A DNA stretch of 64,000 bases from Paraburkholderia heleia NBRC 101817 (GTDB taxonomy: Bacteria > Pseudomonadota > Gammaproteobacteria > Burkholderiales > Burkholderiaceae): the NCBI RefSeq assembly GCF_000739775.1, contig NZ_BBJH01000039.1, forward strand, positions 1-64,000, given 5' to 3'. The position numbers and the translations under genes are program-made. The notes under the pieces were generated by a model. It did not search any database. It saw only the letters and a list, made by a program, of their open reading frames with translations, and was not told the DNA's origin. Of the stretch, positions 2,806 to 14,640 are shown in pieces; position 1 is the stretch's first letter, and each line of letters opens with the position of its first letter.

Positions 2806-3030
2806 TTAATTGTGACATTCCGGCACTGTGCTTTCGTTCTCGGTACCCCACGTGTCTAGCCATCGCCATACCTCCTCACCAGTGAGGTGCAAGCCCGTCT
2901 TTTGGAACTCCAGCCAGGAATTCACGGCCTCTTGCTGGAATCGCGCGCGTGCCGCCACTCTCTGACCGAGCTCGACGTCAGACGCGTGGCCCACATCGTG
3001 AGCTCCAGATGACGGTAATCGCGATTTCAT
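2806..3030 (-). CDS. Antitoxin-like small protein (74 aa), no toxin partner seen
   Basis: I take ATG 3028-3030 as start, because the part upstream of it in the open frame has no protein-like character and contains the repeat-rich control region. The C-terminal half, SWLEFQKTGLHLT followed by a WLDTWGTE segment and an ending PECHN, resembles small antitoxins usually coded next to RelE/ParE-type toxins. No toxin gene lies downstream (only 126 bp before the next gene) or upstream. The family call rests on memory of the motif, so an unrelated regulator remains possible. Confidence 0.5.
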   Translation of the reverse strand: MKSRLPSSGAHDVGHASDVELGQRVAARARFQQEAVNSWLEFQKTGLHLTGEEVWRWLDTWGTENESTVPECHN

Positions 3031-3037
3031 AGCATAA

Positions 3038-3069
3038 CGTAACGTATCAATCGTATCGTAACGTACCAA
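3038..3069 (-). promoter_or_regulatory. Tandem 13-bp repeats upstream of the antitoxin-like gene
   Basis: cgtaacgtatcaa (3038-3050) and cgtaacgtaccaa (3057-3069) are direct repeats with one mismatch, 19 bp apart start to start. They lie just upstream of the ATG at 3030. This is the layout expected for an autoregulatory operator bound by an antitoxin or by another small DNA-binding protein. Confidence 0.55.
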
Positions 3070-3246: not shown

Positions 3247-3642
3247 CTAAAGCTTGGAGAGTTCGACCGGACCAAACATGAACACCATCAGATAACCAGT
3301 GGAGGTCTTGAATTTCCCCGCCGTAAAACCGGGCTGGACCTTTGCCACCAAGGCGACCCTCGTTTTCAGCCCGATGAATGGACCGTTCACCGAGCCGCCG
3401 ACCAATTTTTCAAACTCGTCCTTGGTCACCGGCTGCGCAAAGTCAGAGCCGGATCGCCAGCTTCCATTGCTGTAATCATCGAACACGTAGCCGGCGGCCG
3501 TCTTTTCCACCTTGATCACCGGTTCGACTTTTCCGTTTTGCTTCGCGCCGTACATCCCCTCCAGCGTATCCGGCGAATTCCTGTTGCAGCCGGAAAGTAT
3601 CGCCACAAGTAGTCCAAGCACAATACCCAAGAGCTTCTTCAA
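3247..3642 (-). CDS. Small lipoprotein (131 aa) next to the VirB6-like gene
   Basis: The protein starts with MKK, a hydrophobic core and the lipobox LSGC with the acylated cysteine at residue 19, so it is exported and lipid-anchored. The mature part is about 110 residues, rich in glycine and lysine, without a family I recognise. It directly follows the VirB6-like gene in the same transcript (49 bp gap). In conjugative systems a lipoprotein beside VirB6/TrbL is often an entry-exclusion or pore-associated protein. That role is only a suggestion from position. Confidence 0.75.
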   Translation of the reverse strand: MKKLLGIVLGLLVAILSGCNRNSPDTLEGMYGAKQNGKVEPVIKVEKTAAGYVFDDYSNGSWRSGSDFAQPVTKDEFEKLVGGSVNGPFIGLKTRVALVAKVQPGFTAGKFKTSTGYLMVFMFGPVELSKL

Positions 3643-3691
3643 TTTTTCGTCCTCTATATCGGTCAGCAGATAAGGGAATTTTAGCCAGCGC

Positions 3692-4711
3692 CTATAGACC
3701 CTTGACGCTGTTCATGCGGAATCGACTCGTCGCAGCGCGAGCGGCAGCCTGGCCGGCGCCAATAGCATGGCGCGCGCCAGCTTGCGCACCACCCAGTGCT
3801 TTACCGCCCGCCCATTTCGAGCCTTGACCGGCCGCGCGCGCGATGATGCGCGACGCACCGCCAGTCGCTGAAGATACGACCCAGTTCCCGAAGCCGGTGC
3901 CGATCGGCGCACCTCCGGCGAGGCTAGATGCCACGTGGGTAACACCCATGATGACGAGCACGTCGATGATCGCAATCAGCAGCAAACCCAACGCACTGCC
4001 GAGGCCGGAGGTCGGAGTCATCGAATCCATGTACTGCTGAAATGCGACGTACGTGAACGACAGCACTGTCACCGCAAATACGTTGACGAAAACGTAGTTG
4101 ACGATCAGACCTACCCACGCATCGAAGAACCGCTTCGTAACGTCGAAAATCAGGCAGCCGATGAAAATCGGACCAAAAGCCAACAGTACGGTCAACATGC
4201 CCTTTGAGAGCAGGATGAGGTAGGCGGCATAGACGGTCATGATGAGCCCAGCCCCGTAATACACTATCCCCGAAAAGAAGAATGAAAATCCGTTAGAGGT
4301 TAGCAAAGAACCCCGAGAGAACGCATCGCTCCCAAGCGACCATGCCTGACCCAGTTGTTGATCGAGGATCGATGGACCGGCAACGGTGTCAGCGGTCTGC
4401 CCAGTAACGATGCTCGTGAGATCTGTCGGCAAATTCAGCACGGGATCGAGCACGTACTGCCCGTACCCAGCGATGGAAAAGCCGATGCTCAGGATCAGCG
4501 TTATCTTGATGATCCGGAATACCATGTCATTGCCCCAATCCTGCACTTTTCCGCGAATGCCCGCCCAAGAATAGAGAATGAAGTAGATCCCGAGGCACGT
4601 TGTTACTACAGGCAGCATCGCAGTAATCGTCCGCTGGACTGCGGCGTTCAGGAACGCATCAATCGCAGCTTGGAAGTGCGTGAAGATGTTTGCGAAAATT
4701 GTCAGCGTCAT
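3692..4711 (-). CDS. VirB6/TrbL-like inner-membrane channel protein
   Basis: The 339-residue protein has a short N-terminal amphipathic part, then several long hydrophobic segments (about residues 30-50, 85-105, 140-180, 190-215 and 240-265) and an alanine/glycine-rich cytoplasmic tail. This is the size and layout of VirB6/TrbL proteins, which form part of the inner-membrane channel of type IV secretion systems. No other channel, ATPase or coupling-protein gene is present in the element, so the subunit is an orphan. It may modify or block a helper system's machinery. It lies 15 bp after a 94-aa gene that carries a palindrome 34 bp upstream of this start. Confidence 0.75.
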   Translation of the reverse strand: MTLTIFANIFTHFQAAIDAFLNAAVQRTITAMLPVVTTCLGIYFILYSWAGIRGKVQDWGNDMVFRIIKITLILSIGFSIAGYGQYVLDPVLNLPTDLTSIVTGQTADTVAGPSILDQQLGQAWSLGSDAFSRGSLLTSNGFSFFFSGIVYYGAGLIMTVYAAYLILLSKGMLTVLLAFGPIFIGCLIFDVTKRFFDAWVGLIVNYVFVNVFAVTVLSFTYVAFQQYMDSMTPTSGLGSALGLLLIAIIDVLVIMGVTHVASSLAGGAPIGTGFGNWVVSSATGGASRIIARAAGQGSKWAGGKALGGAQAGARHAIGAGQAAARAATSRFRMNSVKGL

Positions 4712-4726: not shown

Positions 4727-5011
4727 CTATTGCCGGCGAGCCGGACTTTCGTTGACTAAAGTTTTGCCGGCACGCTGGGCCTTCAGAAAGCTGCCGTAGT
4801 CACGGCATACGCGTTCGATTGCTACATCGTCGTATGCATCAAGCGTACGTCGCTCAAAGGCGAGTAGCTGCCGCTTGATATGTAAGCGCGCCAACATCTT
4901 CGCGTCAGGCCGAGGCTTTGCTTCCTCCGCCGCTATTTCGCTCACGATGAATCCGATCATCGAGTTGAGCACCTCCAATGCCGTTTCGAGGCGAGCCACG
5001 CTATCGGTCAT
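4727..5011 (-). CDS. Small hypothetical protein (94 aa) of the mobilization operon
   Basis: The start is ATG 5009-5011, which shares its A with the TGA of the preceding gene (TGATG), so translation is probably coupled. The protein is mostly helical, with many alanine, glutamate and arginine residues and a likely coiled segment over residues 30-60. I do not recognise a family. Near the C-terminus it encodes KTLVNES, a stretch that also forms the operator-like palindrome at 4745-4762; the 82-aa protein at 7085 encodes nearly the same (KTFVNES). Confidence 0.7.
   Translation of the reverse strand: MTDSVARLETALEVLNSMIGFIVSEIAAEEAKPRPDAKMLARLHIKRQLLAFERRTLDAYDDVAIERVCRDYGSFLKAQRAGKTLVNESPARRQ
4745..4762. 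promoter_or_regulatory. Operator-like palindrome upstream of the VirB6-like gene
   Basis: actttcgttgactaaagt is an imperfect palindrome with actt(t)/(a)aagt ends, 34 bp upstream of the 4711 start. It matches the perfect palindrome at 7160-7177 at all but one base and resembles that at 7111-7127. It lies inside the coding region of the 94-aa gene. Confidence 0.55.
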
Positions 5012-5217
5012 CACAGAACCTCCGTGACGGCGGGAAAGCCCTCGACCACCAGATGATCCAGGCGCTCGTAGAAAACGCCCAGCATTGCCGCGAGGTCCTC
5101 GTACATCGGATTCGGCCTCATCAGATCGATGCATTGGCCCATCCCATGGACGGCCTCCTGAAGCGACGTGTACCACGTGAGTAAATCGGGGGACGCGTTA
5201 CTATTGATGTCAGCCAT
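5011..5217 (-). CDS. Small hypothetical protein (68 aa) after the relaxase
   Basis: ATG at 5215-5217 is preceded by a strong ribosome-binding site (aaggaggtg) at good spacing, which fixes the start. The product is acidic and helical and I do not recognise it. Its stop overlaps the start of the 94-aa gene by one base. It follows the relaxase gene after a 150-bp gap that contains a strong inverted repeat. Confidence 0.65.
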   Translation of the reverse strand: MADINSNASPDLLTWYTSLQEAVHGMGQCIDLMRPNPMYEDLAAMLGVFYERLDHLVVEGFPAVTEVL

Positions 5218-5367: not shown

Positions 5368-6555
5368 TCAACGCTCATGGTCATCTTTCCTTGACGCACT
5401 ATCGCGCGTTGGAATCACGCTCGGCCTCGACTTCTGCACATGAGTTCCTGCCGCACTTGCGACCTTCGGCCTCTCGTCACTGAGACGATCATGCCCTTCC
5501 CTCGTCTTCCTCATCCGGCTAGCGGTGTGCTGCCGCTCTGTCATCGGCACCGGCACGCTGCTCACGAAACGTCTAATGTCGTTGCTCAGAAGCGCGTCAC
5601 CCGGCTTACCAGAGGCTCGAAGCGCGTCAGCGAGTTCCAGCCACGTATTGGTCACTTCTTCATGCCTGCGTGCAGCTGCCGCCTCCCATACGCCATCGGC
5701 GCTCTTTCCAGTCAGTACGGCATTGGCAGCAGCTCGAAGCTTGGCGAGCTCCACATTCGACCGACAGGGATTGTCCTGGCGGTTCTTGGACATGTGGTAC
5801 ATGTTCTGTCGTTTTCCCTTGCGGACAACGCCGCGGATAGATCTCGGCGTAGCTGCGGCCTGAATTCCGTGTTCACGTAGTTTCTGAGCGAACAGTTGCC
5901 TAAACTCCCAAAGCTGAGGCGGCCCGTGAAGTAGTCGTTGCCCATCCACCGAGCCTGCTTTCACGCATACATGAGCGTGCGGATGCGGTGGTGCTTGTGG
6001 ATCTGGATCAGTATCGGGCGTGTGGAGTGCGAAAACGTACTCGTGCCCCGCGAACGCTTCTCGCGAAAATTCCCTGACCGCCGACGTAAACCGCTCGACG
6101 TTCGTATCGGCAGGCATCGACAGCACCAAATTGACTGTGAGCTTTCCATTCGAGCGTCGCTTGCCGCACCATTCAGACCAGTGCTGCTGCAACTCGCGCA
6201 CATCATCGAGACACGTGAGTTGTTGGCCGCTATCCGTCTCGGCTGTGAGCCGGCCATTTCGAGTGATATACGTCAAATGAGCCCAGACGCGACCGGTCGT
6301 TTTCGCGACACTGCTAACCTTCACAACCGCCTCCGGCGCTCGATGCACAACACGCGCTATCGCCGCTCGCGCCGTATCCGTGCTGGCAACAGCGCGCCGG
6401 CTACTGCGCATATGCAGGTCAGGAAGCGAAGGCCGCACTTGCCCGGTCGATTGCCGTCCGGCGCGAACCGATGTTAGTCGTCGGAGTTCTTCCGAATCCG
6501 ATGAATCCAGTATCCCTAAAGTATCGAAGAGTTTTTCGACCTTGCGGTTGCTCAT
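5368..6555 (-). CDS. mobA: VirD2-like (MOBP-type) relaxase
   Basis: The 395-residue protein nicks the transfer origin and leads the strand into the recipient. Motif I, HLTYITRNGRL, matches the LEYLSRKGKL region of VirD2, which makes Tyr96 the likely catalytic residue. The metal-binding motif HPHAHV (His191, 193, 195) fits motif III. The first 65 residues and the basic C-terminal 130 residues are extensions without a recognised domain. Its ATG overlaps the mobC stop (ATGA), so the two are translated together, as in other MobC-MobA pairs. No coupling protein is coded nearby, so a helper must supply the channel. Confidence 0.85.
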   Translation of the reverse strand: MSNRKVEKLFDTLGILDSSDSEELRRLTSVRAGRQSTGQVRPSLPDLHMRSSRRAVASTDTARAAIARVVHRAPEAVVKVSSVAKTTGRVWAHLTYITRNGRLTAETDSGQQLTCLDDVRELQQHWSEWCGKRRSNGKLTVNLVLSMPADTNVERFTSAVREFSREAFAGHEYVFALHTPDTDPDPQAPPHPHAHVCVKAGSVDGQRLLHGPPQLWEFRQLFAQKLREHGIQAAATPRSIRGVVRKGKRQNMYHMSKNRQDNPCRSNVELAKLRAAANAVLTGKSADGVWEAAAARRHEEVTNTWLELADALRASGKPGDALLSNDIRRFVSSVPVPMTERQHTASRMRKTREGHDRLSDERPKVASAAGTHVQKSRPSVIPTRDSASRKDDHER

Positions 6556-7088
6556 GGCTTCGCACTCCTTCGGCTAATGCTCGCATCCGTCAGTTCCGCG
6601 ACGAGAGCGCAATGCCGCTTGATTTCTGCGCTGAGCGTTTCGACACGCTCGACCGTCATGCTTCGACTCGCATTCGGCTCCATGTTCAGAGTACGGGCGA
6701 TCTGATTGAGGTTCCTCCCAATCGCCGCAAGTTGCCTGCTCGACTCGGCCAAGGCGTCAACCTCGGCACGGTTGAACTGTGGCTGCCGGAGCAATGTCGC
6801 CCGTATGAGCTTAACGATCCATTCCGTCCTTCGAAGGCCCTCCCCCGTAGCCGCTGCCGTTAGTAGCTGATGCTCTTCGGAGGTCAGCAAGACGTTCACC
6901 TGCGTCCCTGCGCTCCGCGACTTCCGCGTAGGCGGTAAAGCGGGTTTCTCTTCGGTATGCAACACCTTGTCCAGCATCAGCCGTAGGAGTTGCGCTTCGC
7001 TTCGACAACCGTGGCGCTGTGCCGCCGCAGCAAACTTCAGCTTGGTTTCTCGTGACACGCGCGCCCGGATCGTCTCGTACTCTTTCAT
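6552..7088 (-). CDS. mobC: MobC-type mobilization accessory protein
   Basis: The 178-residue protein has a basic N-terminal part resembling a ribbon-helix-helix DNA-binding domain (RARVSRETKLKFAAAAQRHG). The C-terminal part has the MobC signature around IGRNLNQIARTLN, about residue 135-150. MobC proteins bind oriT and help the relaxase open the strands. I chose ATG 7088 because gcggag precedes it and because it overlaps the TGA of the upstream gene. Two palindromes lie 23 and 72 bp upstream, and MobC itself is one candidate for binding them. Confidence 0.8.
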   Translation of the reverse strand: MKEYETIRARVSRETKLKFAAAAQRHGCRSEAQLLRLMLDKVLHTEEKPALPPTRKSRSAGTQVNVLLTSEEHQLLTAAATGEGLRRTEWIVKLIRATLLRQPQFNRAEVDALAESSRQLAAIGRNLNQIARTLNMEPNASRSMTVERVETLSAEIKRHCALVAELTDASISRRSAKP

Positions 7089-7333
7089 GTCACGGCTCCG
7101 CCGCGTGCCCACTTTCTAGAAGAAAGTGTTTCCTGCCCTAGCACACAAGACACATCGCCACTTTCGTTGACGAAAGTTTTCGTCGGCCTGTATTGCGCAA
7201 TACACGAGCGCACAAGGCATCGAAGCGCTTCGTCGCGCTCCCGCGCGACTATGTCGTCGTTGTTTGCAAAGGCGAGGAGTTCCCCCTCGATAGCGGCTCC
7301 CGCCGCTGGTTGGCACATTTGGCTATGGTTCAT
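7085..7333 (-). CDS. Small hypothetical protein (82 aa) upstream of mobC
   Basis: ATG 7331-7333 overlaps the TGA of the preceding gene by 4 bp, and its own TGA overlaps the mobC ATG in the same way, so it belongs to a tightly coupled operon. I recognise no domain. The segment KTFVNES near residue 55 is encoded by a perfect palindrome and recurs in the 94-aa protein at 4727. The coding sequence may be constrained as much by the operator as by the protein. Confidence 0.6.
   Translation of the reverse strand: MNHSQMCQPAAGAAIEGELLAFANNDDIVARERDEALRCLVRSCIAQYRPTKTFVNESGDVSCVLGQETLSSRKWARGGAVT
7111..7127. promoter_or_regulatory. Palindrome upstream of mobC (proximal)
   Basis: actttct-aga-agaaagt has perfect 7-bp arms, 23 bp upstream of the mobC ATG. 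Its outer half-sites match those of the palindromes at 7160 and 4745, suggesting one regulator. Confidence 0.6.
7160..7177. promoter_or_regulatory. Palindrome upstream of mobC (distal)
   Basis: actttcgt-tg-acgaaagt has perfect 8-bp arms, 72 bp upstream of the mobC ATG and within the 82-aa gene. It is nearly identical to the site at 4745-4762. Confidence 0.65.
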
Positions 7334-7608
7334 GACGCTCCTCGAATCCCCTCGCTGCACCCGGCCAGAAAGCCCAAAATCGCGTCGTAGGCATACGTCA
7401 GCGCCAGTGCGCCGGTTCCAACCGTTGCCATCAGCAACTGATTCCGGACCGGTACGGGATAGGGGATAACAAGTGTCGCCACAAGTACAAACAGCGATAC
7501 GCCGGATAGCAGTAGCAGAGGCCATCTCACGACAGGCCGAATCCAGCGAAGAGCGAGAAACGCGCAGATGGTTACGATCACAATTGCTGCCGAGATGGCT
7601 CTACGCAT
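7330..7608 (-). CDS. Small membrane protein (92 aa)
   Basis: Starting at ATG 7606-7608, the protein has a first hydrophobic segment at residues 5-22, a second at about 29-52 and a third, weaker one near 60-80, so it should be an inner-membrane protein with two or three spans. Its start overlaps the end of the replication-like gene by 8 bp and its stop overlaps the next gene by 4 bp. No family is recognised. The position before mobC suggests a link to transfer or element maintenance, without direct evidence. Confidence 0.65.
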   Translation of the reverse strand: MRRAISAAIVIVTICAFLALRWIRPVVRWPLLLLSGVSLFVLVATLVIPYPVPVRNQLLMATVGTGALALTYAYDAILGFLAGCSEGIRGAS

Positions 7609-8533
7609 GGCTGTTTCCTCGCTTCCGCTGGGTGATCTCTTTGATGGCGTCGAGCGCGGGGCGAGCAATCTGTGGATCGCTGCGGGGACCGTCTTTCGTC
7701 CGCAATTCGGCGATACGCTGCTGCTCGCTTGCTTCACGACGAGCTTTGACGCGCACGGCTCCGAGCGGAACGAAACTTCCGTCATGAAGCTTTCTCAGAA
7801 CTGCACGAAACCATCTGAGCGGCGTGGTCCGAATCGCCCTAGTCTCGATGGCATCCGCCAGTTCGTCGAGCAACTCCTGCGCTCTACAGGCCTCCGTGCT
7901 CGCGAGAGTCTCGAGAAGACCCAGGATCGCAGCTCGTTCGCTCGGTGGTAGCTGCGGAGGAAAGATCAAGTCGCGGGCGCCGCATGGCTCGATGTTTTCG
8001 GGCTTTCGTAGCCTTCTCTCACAACCACGCACAACGTCGTTCGACGAGGTGGTTGTAGTGGTGGTGTTAACTGACTTTGGTATGTCTTGGCTTGGTAAAC
8101 CTTTATGGCCGCTTCCACCGGCGCCGGCTGAGCCGTACGCGGGTCCGCCGGAGGCGGAAACGCCGGAGCCGGAAAATCCGGCTACGGAGTTCGCCGTAGG
8201 CGCAACGAGAGGCTCCGGGTTGAACTCGATATTCCATATCCACTTTCCTCCCGCCCCCTGCCGCTTTTCGCGGATCAGATAGCCGGCAGCTTCCAGTTCC
8301 CCCGCCATCCGCTGCCAACGATCCTTACGGACCTGCAACCGAATTCGAAGCGCTTGCACGCTAACCTGCCAACCAGCCGGCTTCACGGCAAGCCACGCAG
8401 CGACTGCTCGGCTGTCGAGTGCTAGGCGGTCATCCTCCAACAACGCTTCGGGAACTGATCCCCATCGGGTTCTGTGGGTTACGCGAACCACTCCGCCCGC
8501 ATGGTGAGGAAATGCCGATCGATCTCGGACCAT
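7601..8533 (-). CDS. Replication-initiator-like or helix-turn-helix protein
   Basis: The 310-residue protein has an N-terminal winged-helix-like region (residues 10-85). There, SRAVAAWLAVKP and a following QALRIRLQVRKDRWQRMAG resemble phage replication O/DnaD-type and Rep-like HTH domains. A low-complexity linker rich in Gly, Ser and Thr spans about 100-155, followed by a helical C-terminal domain. ATG 8533 lies 11 nt after the previous stop; a GTG at 8572 in the same frame is less likely because it overlaps the upstream gene. It probably serves DNA replication or partition of the excised element, but a transcriptional role is not excluded. Confidence 0.55.
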   Translation of the reverse strand: MVRDRSAFPHHAGGVVRVTHRTRWGSVPEALLEDDRLALDSRAVAAWLAVKPAGWQVSVQALRIRLQVRKDRWQRMAGELEAAGYLIREKRQGAGGKWIWNIEFNPEPLVAPTANSVAGFSGSGVSASGGPAYGSAGAGGSGHKGLPSQDIPKSVNTTTTTTSSNDVVRGCERRLRKPENIEPCGARDLIFPPQLPPSERAAILGLLETLASTEACRAQELLDELADAIETRAIRTTPLRWFRAVLRKLHDGSFVPLGAVRVKARREASEQQRIAELRTKDGPRSDPQIARPALDAIKEITQRKRGNSHA

Positions 8534-8544
8534 CGCAGATGACG

Positions 8545-8772
8545 TCACAGCGAGAACCCTTGTTCGAGACACCGTTGCTGAAGGAGCGCGACGTTGATCA
8601 GGCTGTACTTCCCTACACTTACCGTCGGCAGATAACCCTTGTTGCAGAACCCGACGATAACGCCGACCGGTAGGCCGATCGCCGCGGCGAAGGCCTCGCG
8701 CGACATCATCGGAACCGGTGGAAGCACCGGAAGGCTCGGCGCGCTCTTTGCCGCTTCGGTTATTGACGCCAT
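8545..8772 (-). CDS. Excisionase-like small DNA-binding protein (75 aa)
   Basis: ATG 8770-8772 follows a perfect aaggag site. After a proline-rich leader of about 20 residues comes a MerR/AlpA-like helix-turn-helix, SREAFAAAIGLPVGVIVGF, then a short wing (YLPTVSVGKYSL). This size and fold fit the excisionase or AlpA-type regulators of integrated elements. It is the first gene of the leftward operon and is transcribed divergently from the regulator-integrase pair, across the operator at 8801-8817. It could instead be a Cro-like repressor. Confidence 0.55.
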   Translation of the reverse strand: MASITEAAKSAPSLPVLPPVPMMSREAFAAAIGLPVGVIVGFCNKGYLPTVSVGKYSLINVALLQQRCLEQGFSL

Positions 8773-8800
8773 AATCGCTCCTTGGAGAATCACCAGTGAT

Positions 8801-8817: not shown

Positions 8818-8859
8818 GTTAGTGATTTATAGTCACGGAACGATTTCTTGTCAACGGTC

Positions 8860-9555
8860 ATGCACATGCACCCCATAGCCACGCGAATGAAGGCGATCAT
8901 TGAAGCCGAGACGGACAACCGGCGACGCTACAAGGAGCTGGAGGAAATCTCGAATGTCCATCCAGATACTTGGAAGTCGTTTTGGTACGGTAAGCAGCGC
9001 CCGACCGCAGAGATGATTGAGGCCATAAGCCAAAGATGGCCGCAGTACGCCTTCTGGCTCGTAACAGGCATCACCGATCCCGAACGGAACCACATAGCGC
9101 CGGCAACGGCTGCAAGCGGGTACCCGGTTATGCGCGGGGTGGAACAGCCTTGGGCGACACGAGAATTTCGCTATCTGATCGCAGCGCGCAACAGTGAACC
9201 GACCGACGACGATCAACGAGCGTTGCGTCGGCGACAAATCCAAGACGCGGCTCTTCAAGCCATGGAGAAAGTGATATCGCCGGCAGCGAACGTTTCGTAC
9301 GAAAAGGCGATGCGCGTACTCGGCGAATCCGGCCGGCATGATTTCTATCCGCTGGCCCTGGATCCCGAATATCTATCGATCCGTAAGGCCCGACGGGACG
9401 CCGAGGATCAATTACGGAAGGACGGCTTCGGTTGGTTCGATAACGTTCTCTCGTCCGTGAAGATCGACAAGCGGTTGCTCCAAAACCCTAAGGCGTTGCT
9501 CAGCAAGGTCTTCGGCGCGTTATTCGCTCGACAAGATGACCATCAAGAAGACTAA
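8860..9555 (+). CDS. Element regulator with N-terminal helix-turn-helix (231 aa)
   Basis: The N-terminal 60 residues contain RRRYKELEEISNVHPDTWKS and KQRPTAEMIEAISQRWP, a layout resembling phage repressor or Cro helix-turn-helix domains. The rest is charged and helical without a recognised domain. The start is unsure: TTG 8848, ATG 8860 or ATG 8866; I list 8860. The gene reads away from the 8801 operator and overlaps the integrase start by 20 bp, so it likely controls excision and transfer and couples integrase synthesis to its own. Confidence 0.65.
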   Translation: MHMHPIATRMKAIIEAETDNRRRYKELEEISNVHPDTWKSFWYGKQRPTAEMIEAISQRWPQYAFWLVTGITDPERNHIAPATAASGYPVMRGVEQPWATREFRYLIAARNSEPTDDDQRALRRRQIQDAALQAMEKVISPAANVSYEKAMRVLGESGRHDFYPLALDPEYLSIRKARRDAEDQLRKDGFGWFDNVLSSVKIDKRLLQNPKALLSKVFGALFARQDDHQED

Positions 9556-10705
9556 GAGCGGCTGGCTCGTTGATATCCAGCCTGGGGGCCGCGGAGGGAA
9601 GCGCTACCGGAAAACGCTCAAGACGCAAGCCGAAGCGAAAGCGTACGAAGCATGGCTCACGGCGAAGGTTGCTCAAGCGCCCGAGTGGGTGCCTGCACCC
9701 AGAGACTCGCGGCGACTGTCGGAGCTCATCGAGCTATGGAATCTCCATCATGGAATGCAGTTGCGGCACACCCGCACGTATCCGACGCTCCAGCGCGTCT
9801 GCATTGCGCTAGGCAACCCGTTGGCGACAGCATTTAGCGCAGACGACTTCGCGTCTTATAGGGCGTCGCGGATCGCCGAGGGCGTAACGGCCAACACGGT
9901 CAATCGTGAGCACGCGTATTTGCGAGCCGTCTTCAACGAGCTCGCTCGTCTCGGTCATTGGCAGGGAGCAAACCCGCTCGCACGCCTCCGCCAATTTCGG
10001 ATAGCCGAACGGGAGCTGTCCTTTCTCACATCGGATCAAATCGAGGCGTTGCTGGTCGCCCTCGGTCGGCGGAAAAGACAAGATGCGCTGCTGATTACCA
10101 AGCTGTGCTTGGCGACAGGAGCGCGTTGGAGCGAAGCCGAGTGCCTCCGAGTGCAGCAGTTGCGCGGGAATGCCGTTCACTTCACGCAAACGAAGACCGA
10201 CAAAAATCGCTCAGTGCCGATCGACCCTGCACTAGCCGAAGAAATACTCGCGTTTCGGGCATCGAAGTCAAAAGTCATAGGCGACCGCATTTTTGAAAAT
10301 TCTGCGGGCGCCTTCCGCATGGGCGTACGCGATGCGTGCATTGAACTGCCGGAGGGGCAACTCACTCACGTACTCCGTCACACCTTCGCGAGCCACTTCA
10401 TGATGAATGGTGGCAACATTTTGACGTTGCAGCGCATCCTCGGGCACTCTAGCCTACAAATGACGATGCGTTACTCACACTTGGCACCAGATCACTTAAA
10501 GGAGGCTACCCGGCTCAACCCCCTTGTCTCGCTATCGAATCGGGAGAGCGTCCGGACTCCGAATTCGACCACGCATCAAAACACTGACGGCTTTGAAACT
10601 CGCGACGTCACTCAATTGGAAAGACCCGATCAGGTCAACGAACATTGCGAACACGCGCCTGTTCGCGCTGACGTAAGCGCTGACGGACCTGCACATACAA
10701 GTTAG
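9536..10705 (+). CDS. int: Tyrosine recombinase/integrase of the element (389 aa)
   Basis: All parts of a phage-type integrase are present: an arm-binding domain (residues 1-45), a core-binding domain (about 60-145) and a catalytic domain with Arg197 (ATGARW), His278 and Arg281 (HVLRH), His304 (GHSS) and Tyr313 (MRYSH). It should integrate the element into tRNA-Thr and, with the excisionase-like protein, excise it. The gene begins inside the end of the regulator gene with no ribosome-binding site, so it depends on translational coupling. Its last 71 bp overlap the end of ietS on the other strand, so the C-terminal tail may have been rewritten when cargo was acquired. It lies mid-element rather than beside an att site, which is unusual. 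Confidence 0.92.
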   Translation: MTIKKTKSGWLVDIQPGGRGGKRYRKTLKTQAEAKAYEAWLTAKVAQAPEWVPAPRDSRRLSELIELWNLHHGMQLRHTRTYPTLQRVCIALGNPLATAFSADDFASYRASRIAEGVTANTVNREHAYLRAVFNELARLGHWQGANPLARLRQFRIAERELSFLTSDQIEALLVALGRRKRQDALLITKLCLATGARWSEAECLRVQQLRGNAVHFTQTKTDKNRSVPIDPALAEEILAFRASKSKVIGDRIFENSAGAFRMGVRDACIELPEGQLTHVLRHTFASHFMMNGGNILTLQRILGHSSLQMTMRYSHLAPDHLKEATRLNPLVSLSNRESVRTPNSTTHQNTDGFETRDVTQLERPDQVNEHCEHAPVRADVSADGPAHTS

Positions 10706-12932
10706 CGTCTGCGTTTTCGAGGTCACGAAACGTTACCGCCATAGAGTAAGGCTCCGGAATATCCGGTCGGGGATTCCATGGCTCATCCTTTCTTGTGACG
10801 ACGATGAACAATCGCCTATCCTTGGATACTTTATACGTCCATGTTGCACACTGTAACGTGCCCTTTGATCGGGTGGTCGCATTGATATTGGCAAACGCTG
10901 ACTCAGCCAGTTTTCGCGCGGCTGCTACGCGATTCGTGTTGAACCAGCCACTAACCTGCTCAAGGCTTTCAGCCTCAACTACGTTAAAACTGAGTTTTGA
11001 AGATCGGTAGCCAATTCTGGTCGTCTTCACCGTCGGGCTGTATGCCAACGCGACCGAAATCTCTCGTGCTCTCTTGCGCCCCTGCCAAAATTCATCCGGC
11101 AACAACAGCTCGTAAAAATGATGATGATCTGTGGCGATAGCGTCCTCTGCAACCAAAGTAACGGCATCGTCATCAGATTCGAATAGGTGTCGAGTCACTA
11201 CGCGGCCGAATCCGCCAAGGCCGAGCTTCAACTCGTTATCTTCGGCGAGGAGAGTCTCAATCTCTCCAGGAACTCGAGCATGCGCACCAAGTATAGCCCT
11301 CACCATATTCGCAGAAGCGTCTGGCAAAAAACGCAGCACTGTTGCCGCAAGATGCGCTACTTGTGGCGCAGCGAAGCTGGTGCCCGGAGCATCATCGAAA
11401 AGTCTGCCATTGGCAAAATCTCGTGAGGTTGAAACCACGCCAAGACGTTGACCTGCGAAACCGTTGCGAAGGTGATGCCTCGCCACGTTTCCGCCAAACG
11501 CGACGAAGTCCGGCTTGACAGCTCCGGCGACCGAAGGGCCACTTCGCGTGAAAGGGCTCGGCTGGTTGCGTCTTGCTATGGGGGTGGTCTCGATTCTTTC
11601 CGGGAATCGCTGAGCTTGATGATCCAACTCAAATTCGGCTAGTCCCCCGACGGTCAGGGAGTTTATTGAAGTCGCGGGATCAAGCAGGCGAAATTCACTA
11701 CCCGACAAATATCCGGGATATGTCTGCAATGCATCGTCCGGTATTTCGTCGGTGAGAAGATTGCCAGTAGGTACAACAAACAGGATATTCAGTTCGCGGC
11801 TCAATCGATCTAGCGTGTACGCCAAGCCCCGGACATGCCTCCCGTCGTACACTTTATTCGCGTCGCCATATGCAAGACAAAAGATCTTGCAGCCATACTG
11901 TTCGCGAAAATACCGAACAGCATCCTCAACTGCCTTCTCAACGAAGTGGGTTTGATCTTGGCCATCATTGCTGAATACCTTTCCCGCAAAGAGTCGCAAC
12001 TGCGGTGCAAAGCGATCTGGCAGCAGATCAGTCATCGAACCATACAAGGCGAGACCAGCAACACGAGTACCATGCCCATCCTCGTCCGCTGCTGGCTCGC
12101 CCGGCTCTATAAAGTTGCCCGTTTCCCCAATCGCAGGCGCCAACAATGGATGGGCCGCCGCAATTCCCGTATCCAAAACGCATACGCCCGGAGCGTCATC
12201 CGGTACAGGGTCGAGATCGGGCAAATCGTTGATGTCCAGCTGCAGCGACTGCAGCTCAAGTCGGAAACTCGGCGGCAAGTCAACTAGCCGCACATCCCGA
12301 TAGCGCAACAAGACGTCTACCTGCGTTGCAGACGCTCGGAGCTTGAACATGAGCAGGCTTTCTTTATCGAGCCGATCTAGCGTCTCGATCTGTTCTGCTC
12401 GCAGTAATTCCTCAAACGCGCGGACCAAACGTACTCGCTCGTCGTTACGCTCGATCGGCCAGAGCTCGACGTCCACAATCGACGAATTTTCATCGGGCAA
12501 CCCAAGCTGTGCTAACGCAGGCCCCGTTCGGTCAGCCGGCGTCCAGGAATCAAACCCCCTAATGGCGAGCAGTAGGTTGGCGTACGTAACATTGCCATCA
12601 CGAGCCAGCACGGTAAGTCGTTGGTCCACCACCGCGAGCGCGTCTTCGGTGCTGAACAGCAGCGCGACCGAACGCCCCTCTTGGCTTACAACAGTGAGCC
12701 CGGGAATTACCTCCAAGTCGTCCGGTCGAAACCCCTCAAGAACATCGATACGCAAGAGCCTACGCTCGTCGAAACCTGGCTCCGCTGGAGCCTCAGTCAC
12801 GACGGTTAGACTGCGCTGTAACTGAACGCCGTGCTGCCTTACGTCGCTTGGCTTCGGAAAGCCAGGAAATCGATTTTTTTTCCTTAAGGTTACCGGCTCA
12901 TCCCGTACTACGCGCAGATGCTCATATGGCAT
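10635..12932 (-). CDS. ietS: IetS-type subtilisin-like serine protease
   Basis: The 765-residue protein has an N-terminal region of about 245 residues, then an S8 peptidase domain with the triad Asp254 (CVLDTG), His287 (GHGTRVAG) and Ser519 (GTSFAAPQ). Asn391 in PTGN is the likely oxyanion residue. There is no signal peptide, so it acts in the cytoplasm. The gene follows an AAA+ ATPase gene by 56 bp. This pair is IetAS: on an Agrobacterium Ti plasmid the protease was described as the toxin and the ATPase as its antidote, and the same pair was later reported as an anti-phage system. The assignment is from architecture and order, not from alignment. Confidence 0.8.
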   Translation of the reverse strand: MPYEHLRVVRDEPVTLRKKNRFPGFPKPSDVRQHGVQLQRSLTVVTEAPAEPGFDERRLLRIDVLEGFRPDDLEVIPGLTVVSQEGRSVALLFSTEDALAVVDQRLTVLARDGNVTYANLLLAIRGFDSWTPADRTGPALAQLGLPDENSSIVDVELWPIERNDERVRLVRAFEELLRAEQIETLDRLDKESLLMFKLRASATQVDVLLRYRDVRLVDLPPSFRLELQSLQLDINDLPDLDPVPDDAPGVCVLDTGIAAAHPLLAPAIGETGNFIEPGEPAADEDGHGTRVAGLALYGSMTDLLPDRFAPQLRLFAGKVFSNDGQDQTHFVEKAVEDAVRYFREQYGCKIFCLAYGDANKVYDGRHVRGLAYTLDRLSRELNILFVVPTGNLLTDEIPDDALQTYPGYLSGSEFRLLDPATSINSLTVGGLAEFELDHQAQRFPERIETTPIARRNQPSPFTRSGPSVAGAVKPDFVAFGGNVARHHLRNGFAGQRLGVVSTSRDFANGRLFDDAPGTSFAAPQVAHLAATVLRFLPDASANMVRAILGAHARVPGEIETLLAEDNELKLGLGGFGRVVTRHLFESDDDAVTLVAEDAIATDHHHFYELLLPDEFWQGRKRAREISVALAYSPTVKTTRIGYRSSKLSFNVVEAESLEQVSGWFNTNRVAAARKLAESAFANINATTRSKGTLQCATWTYKVSKDRRLFIVVTRKDEPWNPRPDIPEPYSMAVTFRDLENADANLYVQVRQRLRQREQARVRNVR

Positions 12933-12988: not shown

Positions 12989-13993
12989 CTACTTTGTGCA
13001 ACTTTTGCCGGTGGTGCGTCGTCTGTGCTCACGAGCGACCGCAGAATCGAGGTGCGTGGTCTCCAAGAACTCTCGACCCTGAAGGACCATTTCTTTTATC
13101 GCCCGACGCAAAACGCGCTCGATATCCGCGTGAGACATACCCTTGAACCGAGAAGACACTGCAACGTCAGACGGCTCGAAGTTCCTCCGGACGCCACGTA
13201 GCTTGTTCTGCAACAGCGCCTTTATCTGCACGGCATCTGGGTTAGCAAATTGGACAGTCTCATCGAAACGTCTCCAAATTGCCGAATCGAGTAGATTCTC
13301 GTGATTTGTCGCCGCTATAAGCACGCTCTTACCGCGATACTCATCGATCATTTGGAGCACTGCATTAACCACGCGGCGCAGTTCTCCATGCTCTCCGGAG
13401 TCGCCCCTATCTTTGGCCAACGCGTCAAATTCGTCGAAGAGGGCCACGACCGGACGCCCCTCCACAAAGTCGAATACCTTTCGAAGATTGGCGGCCGTCT
13501 CTCCGAGGTACGACGAGATAACTGCATCCAGACGAATAATCGCCAGCGGCAAATCAAGTTCCGTCGCAATTATTTCCGCCGTGAGAGTTTTGCCGCATCC
13601 CGGCGGACCGAAGAATAGTAGCTTCCGTGCAGGCTCCAACCCGTAGGTCGTCAGTGCGCCTTCGCGGTTGTGCTCAAGCAGGATGTGCTCGATAGCCGAA
13701 CGAACGTCAGCGCTAACCACCAAGTCGGTCAGTTCACGCGTCGGCTGCCGAATGTCGATCAAGTCAACCCCGCGCTCCTTGTCCGAAGGAACCGACTTCT
13801 TGAGATTGACGACCGAAAGCGATGAAGCGGACGAAGGACGCCCATAGAGAACTTTTTCGAGATCGTTGGCAAGCAAATGATGCTGCTTCCCTCTTTCCTC
13901 GGCGATAACTGCCTCGGACGCCCGGCGAAAAGCTTCGTGGTCGCCCTCGACACCCGCGCGTACCAATTGTCGTAGAAGTTTTCCGTTCGCCAT
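12989..13993 (-). CDS. ietA: IetA-type AAA+ ATPase
   Basis: The 334-residue protein has one AAA+ module: Walker A GPPGCGKT (129-136), Walker B VVALFDEFD (182-190), sensor 1 ATN (228-230) and an arginine-finger RRFD (241-244). The first 95 residues are a helical N-domain. In IetAS systems this ATPase is thought to control the partner protease or remodel its substrates. ATG 13993 follows taggggta and is preferred to the GTG at 14017. It precedes ietS in one transcript, at the right end of the element where cargo usually sits. Confidence 0.8.
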   Translation of the reverse strand: MANGKLLRQLVRAGVEGDHEAFRRASEAVIAEERGKQHHLLANDLEKVLYGRPSSASSLSVVNLKKSVPSDKERGVDLIDIRQPTRELTDLVVSADVRSAIEHILLEHNREGALTTYGLEPARKLLFFGPPGCGKTLTAEIIATELDLPLAIIRLDAVISSYLGETAANLRKVFDFVEGRPVVALFDEFDALAKDRGDSGEHGELRRVVNAVLQMIDEYRGKSVLIAATNHENLLDSAIWRRFDETVQFANPDAVQIKALLQNKLRGVRRNFEPSDVAVSSRFKGMSHADIERVLRRAIKEMVLQGREFLETTHLDSAVAREHRRRTTGKSCTK

Positions 13994-14017
13994 GGTCGAT
14001 ACCCCTACCCTCGTCAC

Positions 14018-14564: not shown

Positions 14565-14640
<76 letters not shown>

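Follow-up and report, generated by a model that had tools for sequence, protein, structure and literature searches.

The DNA examined here, called the window, is a stretch of 64,000 nucleotides from Paraburkholderia heleia NBRC 101817 (GCF_000739775.1, NZ_BBJH01000039.1, positions 1-64,000, forward strand). It carries a 12.9-kb integrative mobilizable element (IME) delimited by two perfect 46-bp copies of the 3' end of a tRNA-Thr(TGT) gene, the integration target (14565-14640, minus strand; ARAGORN, Rfam tRNA). A repeat search placed the two copies, 100% identical, at 1650-1695 (attL) and 14565-14610 (attR), and the same tRNA-Thr repeat bounds the related elements L070 and L071. Beside the tRNA gene stands an anti-phage cargo, the AAA ATPase IetA (12989-14017, minus; PADLOC, E=4e-106) and the subtilase IetS (10635-12932, minus; PADLOC, E=6e-256). 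Then come a tyrosine integrase (9536-10705, plus; Pfam Phage_integrase, E=2e-20), a conserved element protein that is probably a regulator from its repressor position (8848-9555, plus; also in element L068, of the type 2 described below), an AlpA-like small protein named by context (8545-8793, minus; kept in L004, L005, L096 and L068-type elements) and a replication-like (Rep-like) protein (7601-8572, minus) with a weak, below cut-off match to the STY4528 family (NCBIfam NF040582, E=3e-5). The mobilization genes code for a MobC/NikA-like relaxosome protein (6552-7112, minus; Pfam NikA-like E=4e-7, MobC E=2e-6) and a relaxase nearest to MobP1/MOBP (5368-6555, minus; Pfam Relaxase E=2e-7; NCBIfam MobP1 E=6e-22, below the cut-off). 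They are followed by two small ORFs 5' of virB6 (5011-5217, minus, and a 94-aa ORF immediately upstream, 4727-5011, minus), by virB6 itself (3692-4711, minus), by a lipoprotein gene (3247-3642, minus) and by a 74-aa antitoxin-like fragment (2806-3030, minus). A further ORF within the element (1861-2679, plus, 272 aa) matches no family and has a 99% counterpart in the P. oxyphila element. Outside attL, at 416-1612, there is a broken integrase copy, which over 300 bp is 86% identical in DNA to the integrase gene of the element, and the opposite strand of this region has the start of a second integrase-like ORF; both pieces are probably left over from insertions that took place earlier at this tRNA-Thr gene.

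Neither the ORFs nor profile searches revealed a VirB4, a VirD4 (coupling protein), VirB8-11 or any other pore gene between the att repeats, so that the preliminary description, which gave the element a relaxase and MobC but no pore gene or coupling protein other than one VirB6/TrbL, was confirmed. With an integrase between flanking att repeats, its own relaxase, a predicted oriT and neither a complete T4SS nor a coupling protein, the element is an IME. P. bannensis (L004) and P. oxyphila (L005) have the same succession of genes from integrase to lipoprotein, and a contig fragment of another genome (L096) holds the integrase-to-mobC half and ends within the relaxase gene; L096, like L084, is a small contig on which the whole element cannot appear. 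Selection was estimated against P. bannensis, at a synonymous distance large enough to be informative. The dN/dS ratio is 0.07 for virB6, 0.21 for the lipoprotein gene, 0.19 for the relaxase gene, and 0.12 and 0.14 for the 94-aa ORF and the ORF at 5011-5217, the latter being 95-97% identical in L004/L005. virB6 is unbroken in each of the three elements in which the gene is readable, and the lipoprotein gene is present in every IME of the window kind (type 1) for which that stretch is available. The recurrence of the gene order in P. bannensis and P. oxyphila, together with these low ratios, argues that the pair is not there by chance, and both genes are under purifying selection in the related IMEs.

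The 339-aa product of virB6 matches Pfam TrbL (PF04610) with E=8e-37 and 127.5 bits, against a cut-off of 25.9. Its AlphaFold2 model (pLDDT 70, C-terminus weak) resembles the R388 TrwI/VirB6 chains of solved T4SS structures, with a TM-score of 0.80 by target length and a Foldseek E-value of 2e-9. The profile and, on a model of pLDDT 70, the fold both place the protein in the VirB6 family of pore subunits. A search of the whole 8.0-Mb genome gave a single VirB4 and only two TrbL-family matches, of which one is the window ORF and the other belongs to the genome's only complete T4SS, on contig C99. With no more than 26-32% identity to the window VirB6, the VirB6 of C99 is not of the same system; C99 was rejected on this ground as the source of the window VirB6, and the C99-type system groups instead with the type-2 IMEs, in the VirB6 tree as well as in the relaxase tree. 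Since there is one VirB4 and the second TrbL lies in a T4SS of a different lineage, the search of the genome yielded no complete T4SS of the same system as the orphan subunit.

The lipoprotein gene begins 49 bp downstream of virB6 and codes, from a TTG start, for 131 aa with the lipobox LSGC. The pair first described as a VirB6/TrbL-like protein with an adjoining lipoprotein is thus borne out by the ORFs, the Pfam TrbL match, the TrwI-like fold and the lipobox. The mature part of the lipoprotein is modeled as a confident beta domain (pLDDT 85.5), for which a search of the PDB returned no fold relative (best Foldseek E 0.19), and the sequence matches neither Pfam nor the EexN profile (NF033894). 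EexN/TrbK lipoproteins of IncN/IncP plasmids are likewise encoded beside virB6/trbL (PMC8923210), but the window lipoprotein has a larger beta domain and its gene lies downstream of virB6; for want of an NF033894 match, identity with EexN was rejected. Identity with VirB7 was rejected too, since VirB7 has about 40-60 aa and is encoded between virB6 and virB8, whereas the window protein has 131 aa with a beta domain; the VirB7-like ORF of the candidate helper plasmid is a distinct 62-aa gene. Homologues of the lipoprotein sit exactly between virB5 and virB6, in the eex slot, in four complete Paraburkholderia T4SSs (L033, L034/L021, L035 and L036). Burkholderia plasmids have others, close to a type IV pilus cluster, and solitary ones occur in chromosomes and plasmids near no T4SS, one of them not far from a VgrG gene and others adjoining unrelated genes. 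The protein has the lipoprotein signal and the virB6-adjacent position of an entry-exclusion lipoprotein, and in IncP, IncW and IncN the exclusion gene abuts the VirB6 gene (PMC11493245). We lean somewhat towards a role as exclusion factor, which is likely, not established. It is a role by association, because the lipoprotein differs in type from that of the helper and some of its homologues stand alone, away from any T4SS. Should the role hold, the VirB6 of this IME is of the helper's type while its exclusion partner comes from a different family.

A survey of 148 genus genomes, 399 family genomes and plasmids found the same kind of pair in other mobilizable elements, a search that the preliminary description had proposed. 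There are 11 orphan VirB6 loci in five lineages, and a lipoprotein gene adjoins virB6 in all 11, a plain count to which no probability is attached. Type 1 is the window kind, with VirB6 then lipoprotein, in three elements. Type 2 (G048, G087, G477, G211 and G419) has mobC, two ORFs, a 44-48-aa lipoprotein, virB6 and relaxase; type 3 (G045) has EexN and TrbL; type 4 (G441) has VirB5, lipoprotein and VirB6 adjoining mobC; and type 5, a 10.9-kb B. multivorans plasmid, has EexN and VirB6. EexN is thus the adjoining lipoprotein in two of the five lineages, and EexN profile matches beside VirB6 were recorded at L006, L015 and L069. In the VirB6 tree types 1, 2, 4 and 5 stand at separate places, each beside the VirB6 of a complete or T4SS-linked system, while type 3 is on a long branch of unsure placement. 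All five type-2 elements also have a conserved 102-aa membrane protein between mobC and the lipoprotein (L067 7439-7747 and relatives), which could be a second exclusion factor. One type-2 element (L085 437-3746) has in its neighbourhood an AAA ATPase/subtilase pair with distant similarity to the window IetAS.

Among complete T4SSs the nearest VirB6s are those of L006 (78% along the alignment), L007 and L008 (64%), and the orphan groups with these three in the tree with full support. The relaxase tree gives the same pairing of IME and plasmid, the IME relaxase being sister to the plasmid relaxases L089/L093. Identity between IME and candidate helper is 78% for VirB6, 49% for the relaxase and 54% for MobC, and three small ORFs are also common to both at 44-60%; among these, the 94-aa ORF is 44% identical to its candidate-helper homologue (L091/L097). 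L007 is on a 47,390-bp contig (G315:C58), most of which is collinear with two contigs of a second genome (G308, C313 and C410), the DNA identity being about 88-90%. C313 spans the ends of C58, which makes it probable that this plasmid is circular and measures about 47 kb; the loci compared are L089, L091 and L092 on G315:C58 and L088, L093 and L097 on G308:C313 and C410. This lineage carries EexN, KfrA, ParAB-like and ParDE-like genes, with EexN in the eex position, where the IME has none. Every VirB6 among the PLSDB plasmids is less than 60% identical to that of the window; PLSDB plasmids were rejected as helpers for this reason, and the helper lineage seems to be absent from PLSDB. In no genome were the candidate helper plasmid and the IME seen together. 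On these comparisons the approximately 47-kb MPF_T conjugative plasmid lineage is the probable helper of the IME. Between IME and plasmid, the most divergent internal stretch of VirB6 is residues 121-150 (40-45% identity against 78% overall), and the C-terminal tail likewise differs. Residues 121-150 are only a candidate specificity region, because the stretch also varies between the two plasmid-type systems.

Short DNA sites connect the two as well. The putative oriT (7129-7177) consists of a nic-like TTTCCTG|CCCTAG (7129-7141), an 18-nt spacer and the palindrome ACTTTCGTTGACGAAAGT (7160-7177), and an inverted repeat adjoins it at 7110-7128. Upstream of mobC in the plasmid (L089) there is a palindrome of the same kind, again with an 18-nt spacer and followed in the layout by CTAAGGCAGGATA, so that IME and plasmid have in common a layout of palindrome, 18-nt spacer and CTA(A/G)GGCAGGA(T/A)A. 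A second copy, ACTTTCGTTGACTAAAGT (4745-4762), lies upstream of virB6 and is kept in L004/L005; with a slightly relaxed pattern, the copies upstream of mobC and of virB6 are the only two matches in the 8-Mb genome. The 18-bp palindrome ACTTTCGTNNACGAAAGT occurs in five of the 399 family genomes and always in these elements: G308, G315 and G480 hold the sister T4SSs, and the P. heleia genome and G211 hold type-1 IMEs. A reversed-pattern control gave zero matches in all 399. The palindrome may serve as a relaxosome site or as a site for a regulator. A 16-mer, GATACGTTACGTTATG (3033-3048, minus), is also common to both; the plasmid copy lies upstream of kfrA, in its promoter, and the IME copy upstream of the antitoxin-like ORF, which lies just downstream of it. 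This 74-aa ORF (dN/dS 0.32) is 60% identical over 52 aa to the ParD-like antitoxin of the plasmid (L091:5598-5870). The resemblance is to the C-terminal half, which binds the toxin; the DNA-binding half is missing, and so is a toxin. The ORF possibly codes for an anti-addiction protein.

Elements of this kind are already known. In SGI1, TraG, a VirB6 homologue, replaces that of the helper and disables its entry exclusion (PMC5389848), and the IncP island and GIsul2 have already been proposed to reshape the MPF_T pore (PMC5704250). The IncP island of Burkholderia glumae and Brucella suis is like the window IME in its size (12.7-14.1 kb), tyrosine integrase, RepA, own MobP relaxase, relaxosome proteins, TrbL (VirB6), small probable exclusion gene, antitoxin gene and kinship to an MPF_T plasmid (PMC5704250). 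It differs in being IncP-related, in having TrbJ (VirB5) and in its guaA site (PMC5704250), whereas the window IME is at tRNA-Thr, lacks VirB5, is tied to another plasmid lineage, has a 131-aa lipoprotein of another family after virB6 and carries IetAS. Membership of the IncP island family was rejected on the tRNA-Thr site, the lack of VirB5 and a relaxase that is sister to another plasmid lineage. GIsul2 has TrbJ-TrbK-TrbL, that is, VirB6 and an exclusion protein without other pore genes, but it is IncP-related and has no relaxase of its own (PMC5704250). SGI1 is similar as an IME that supplies a VirB6 homologue and whose genes respond to the helper's activator, but its pore is F-type, it also supplies TraN and TraH and it has no canonical relaxase (PMC5389848, PMC11493245). 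It was rejected as a family for the window IME, which has only a P-type VirB6 and no TraN or TraH among its ORFs. Thus SGI1, cited at first as the precedent, fits in general and is the tested case of exclusion escape by VirB6 swap, but the nearest precedents are GIsul2 and the IncP island, which already join TrbL/VirB6 with an exclusion gene, the latter with nearly the same module list, antitoxin included. What is new is the IME lineage, the probable helper with its shared sites, the lipoprotein family and chimeric pair, and the recurrence in separate VirB6 lineages.

The reading that we prefer, with a probability of roughly 0.6, is that the IME is specialised as a satellite of one particular MPF_T plasmid lineage, substituting its VirB6 into the helper pore, and that the lipoprotein is likely to be an exclusion factor. 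When the helper plasmid enters an IME-bearing cell, the mob genes and the virB6 operon of the IME would respond to it through the palindrome that both carry. The IME VirB6 would then replace or mix with the plasmid VirB6 in the pore, as 78% identity, the fold match and purifying selection suggest, and the IME relaxase, acting at the plasmid-like oriT, would send IME DNA through that pore. The swap may change recognition by the helper's EexN in recipients, and the IME lipoprotein may give its host a different exclusion specificity, both steps being suggested by gene position, by recurrence and by the examples of SGI1 and the IncP island. Of the original proposal that the pair alters a helper T4SS, the VirB6 half has gained good support from the sister relationship to the plasmid VirB6, selection, the oriT layout and the palindrome, and the exclusion half rests on position and recurrence.

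The same genes might serve the host instead. A pore subunit so closely related to the helper's could be dominant-negative, and the IME VirB6 would then poison or weaken the helper pore and restrict transfer of the helper, while the lipoprotein excludes incoming plasmids, the gain being host protection and not the element's own transfer; a toxin-less antitoxin-like ORF would suit such an anti-helper programme. We consider this improbable, since VirB6 is conserved along its length and not truncated, and the relaxase, MobC and plasmid-like oriT are kept under purifying selection, which argues that transfer through the helper matters. Still less credible, to the point of being very improbable, is a decayed conjugative element with virB6 and the lipoprotein gene as functionless leftovers. 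Ancestry shared with the conjugative plasmid lineage at several genes and the broken integrase just outside attL could be taken that way, but the dN/dS of virB6 and its intactness in all three readable elements already disfavour it, five lineages retain this kind of pair, and there are no other T4SS fragments in the element.

A separate doubt concerns the lipoprotein only, and is compatible with the VirB6 swap. It may be a general envelope lipoprotein or an immunity-type protein, as its single homologues in chromosomes and plasmids, the lack of an EexN match and a position downstream of virB6, unlike the usual upstream eex, would allow. The four complete T4SSs in which a homologue directly separates virB5 from virB6, the lipoprotein gene adjacent to virB6 in every other orphan lineage found and its presence in all type-1 IMEs where the stretch is available count against such a role, which we regard as rather unlikely, though less so than either of the other two alternatives.

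Beyond the satellite reading, a broader proposal can be made only tentatively, and we would not expect all of it to hold. Exclusion-lipoprotein/virB6 units may have been acquired by Burkholderiales IMEs several times over, in separate events and each time from the lineage of the helper concerned. In the present IME a VirB6 of helper origin may have been given a new partner, an exclusion lipoprotein of another family, which would let the IME escape helper exclusion while imposing its own. With a toxin-less antitoxin and operator sites that likewise stem from the helper, this would make up a full satellite programme directed against an MPF_T helper plasmid, comparable to that of SGI1 and IncC. 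Recurrent lipoprotein-virB6 units in elements otherwise free of T4SS genes are what would be expected if VirB6 is the target of exclusion, and they offer minimal natural pairs with which to test this. With a named helper lineage and shared DNA sites, the relation between an MPF_T satellite and its helper becomes directly testable beyond the IncC/SGI1 model.
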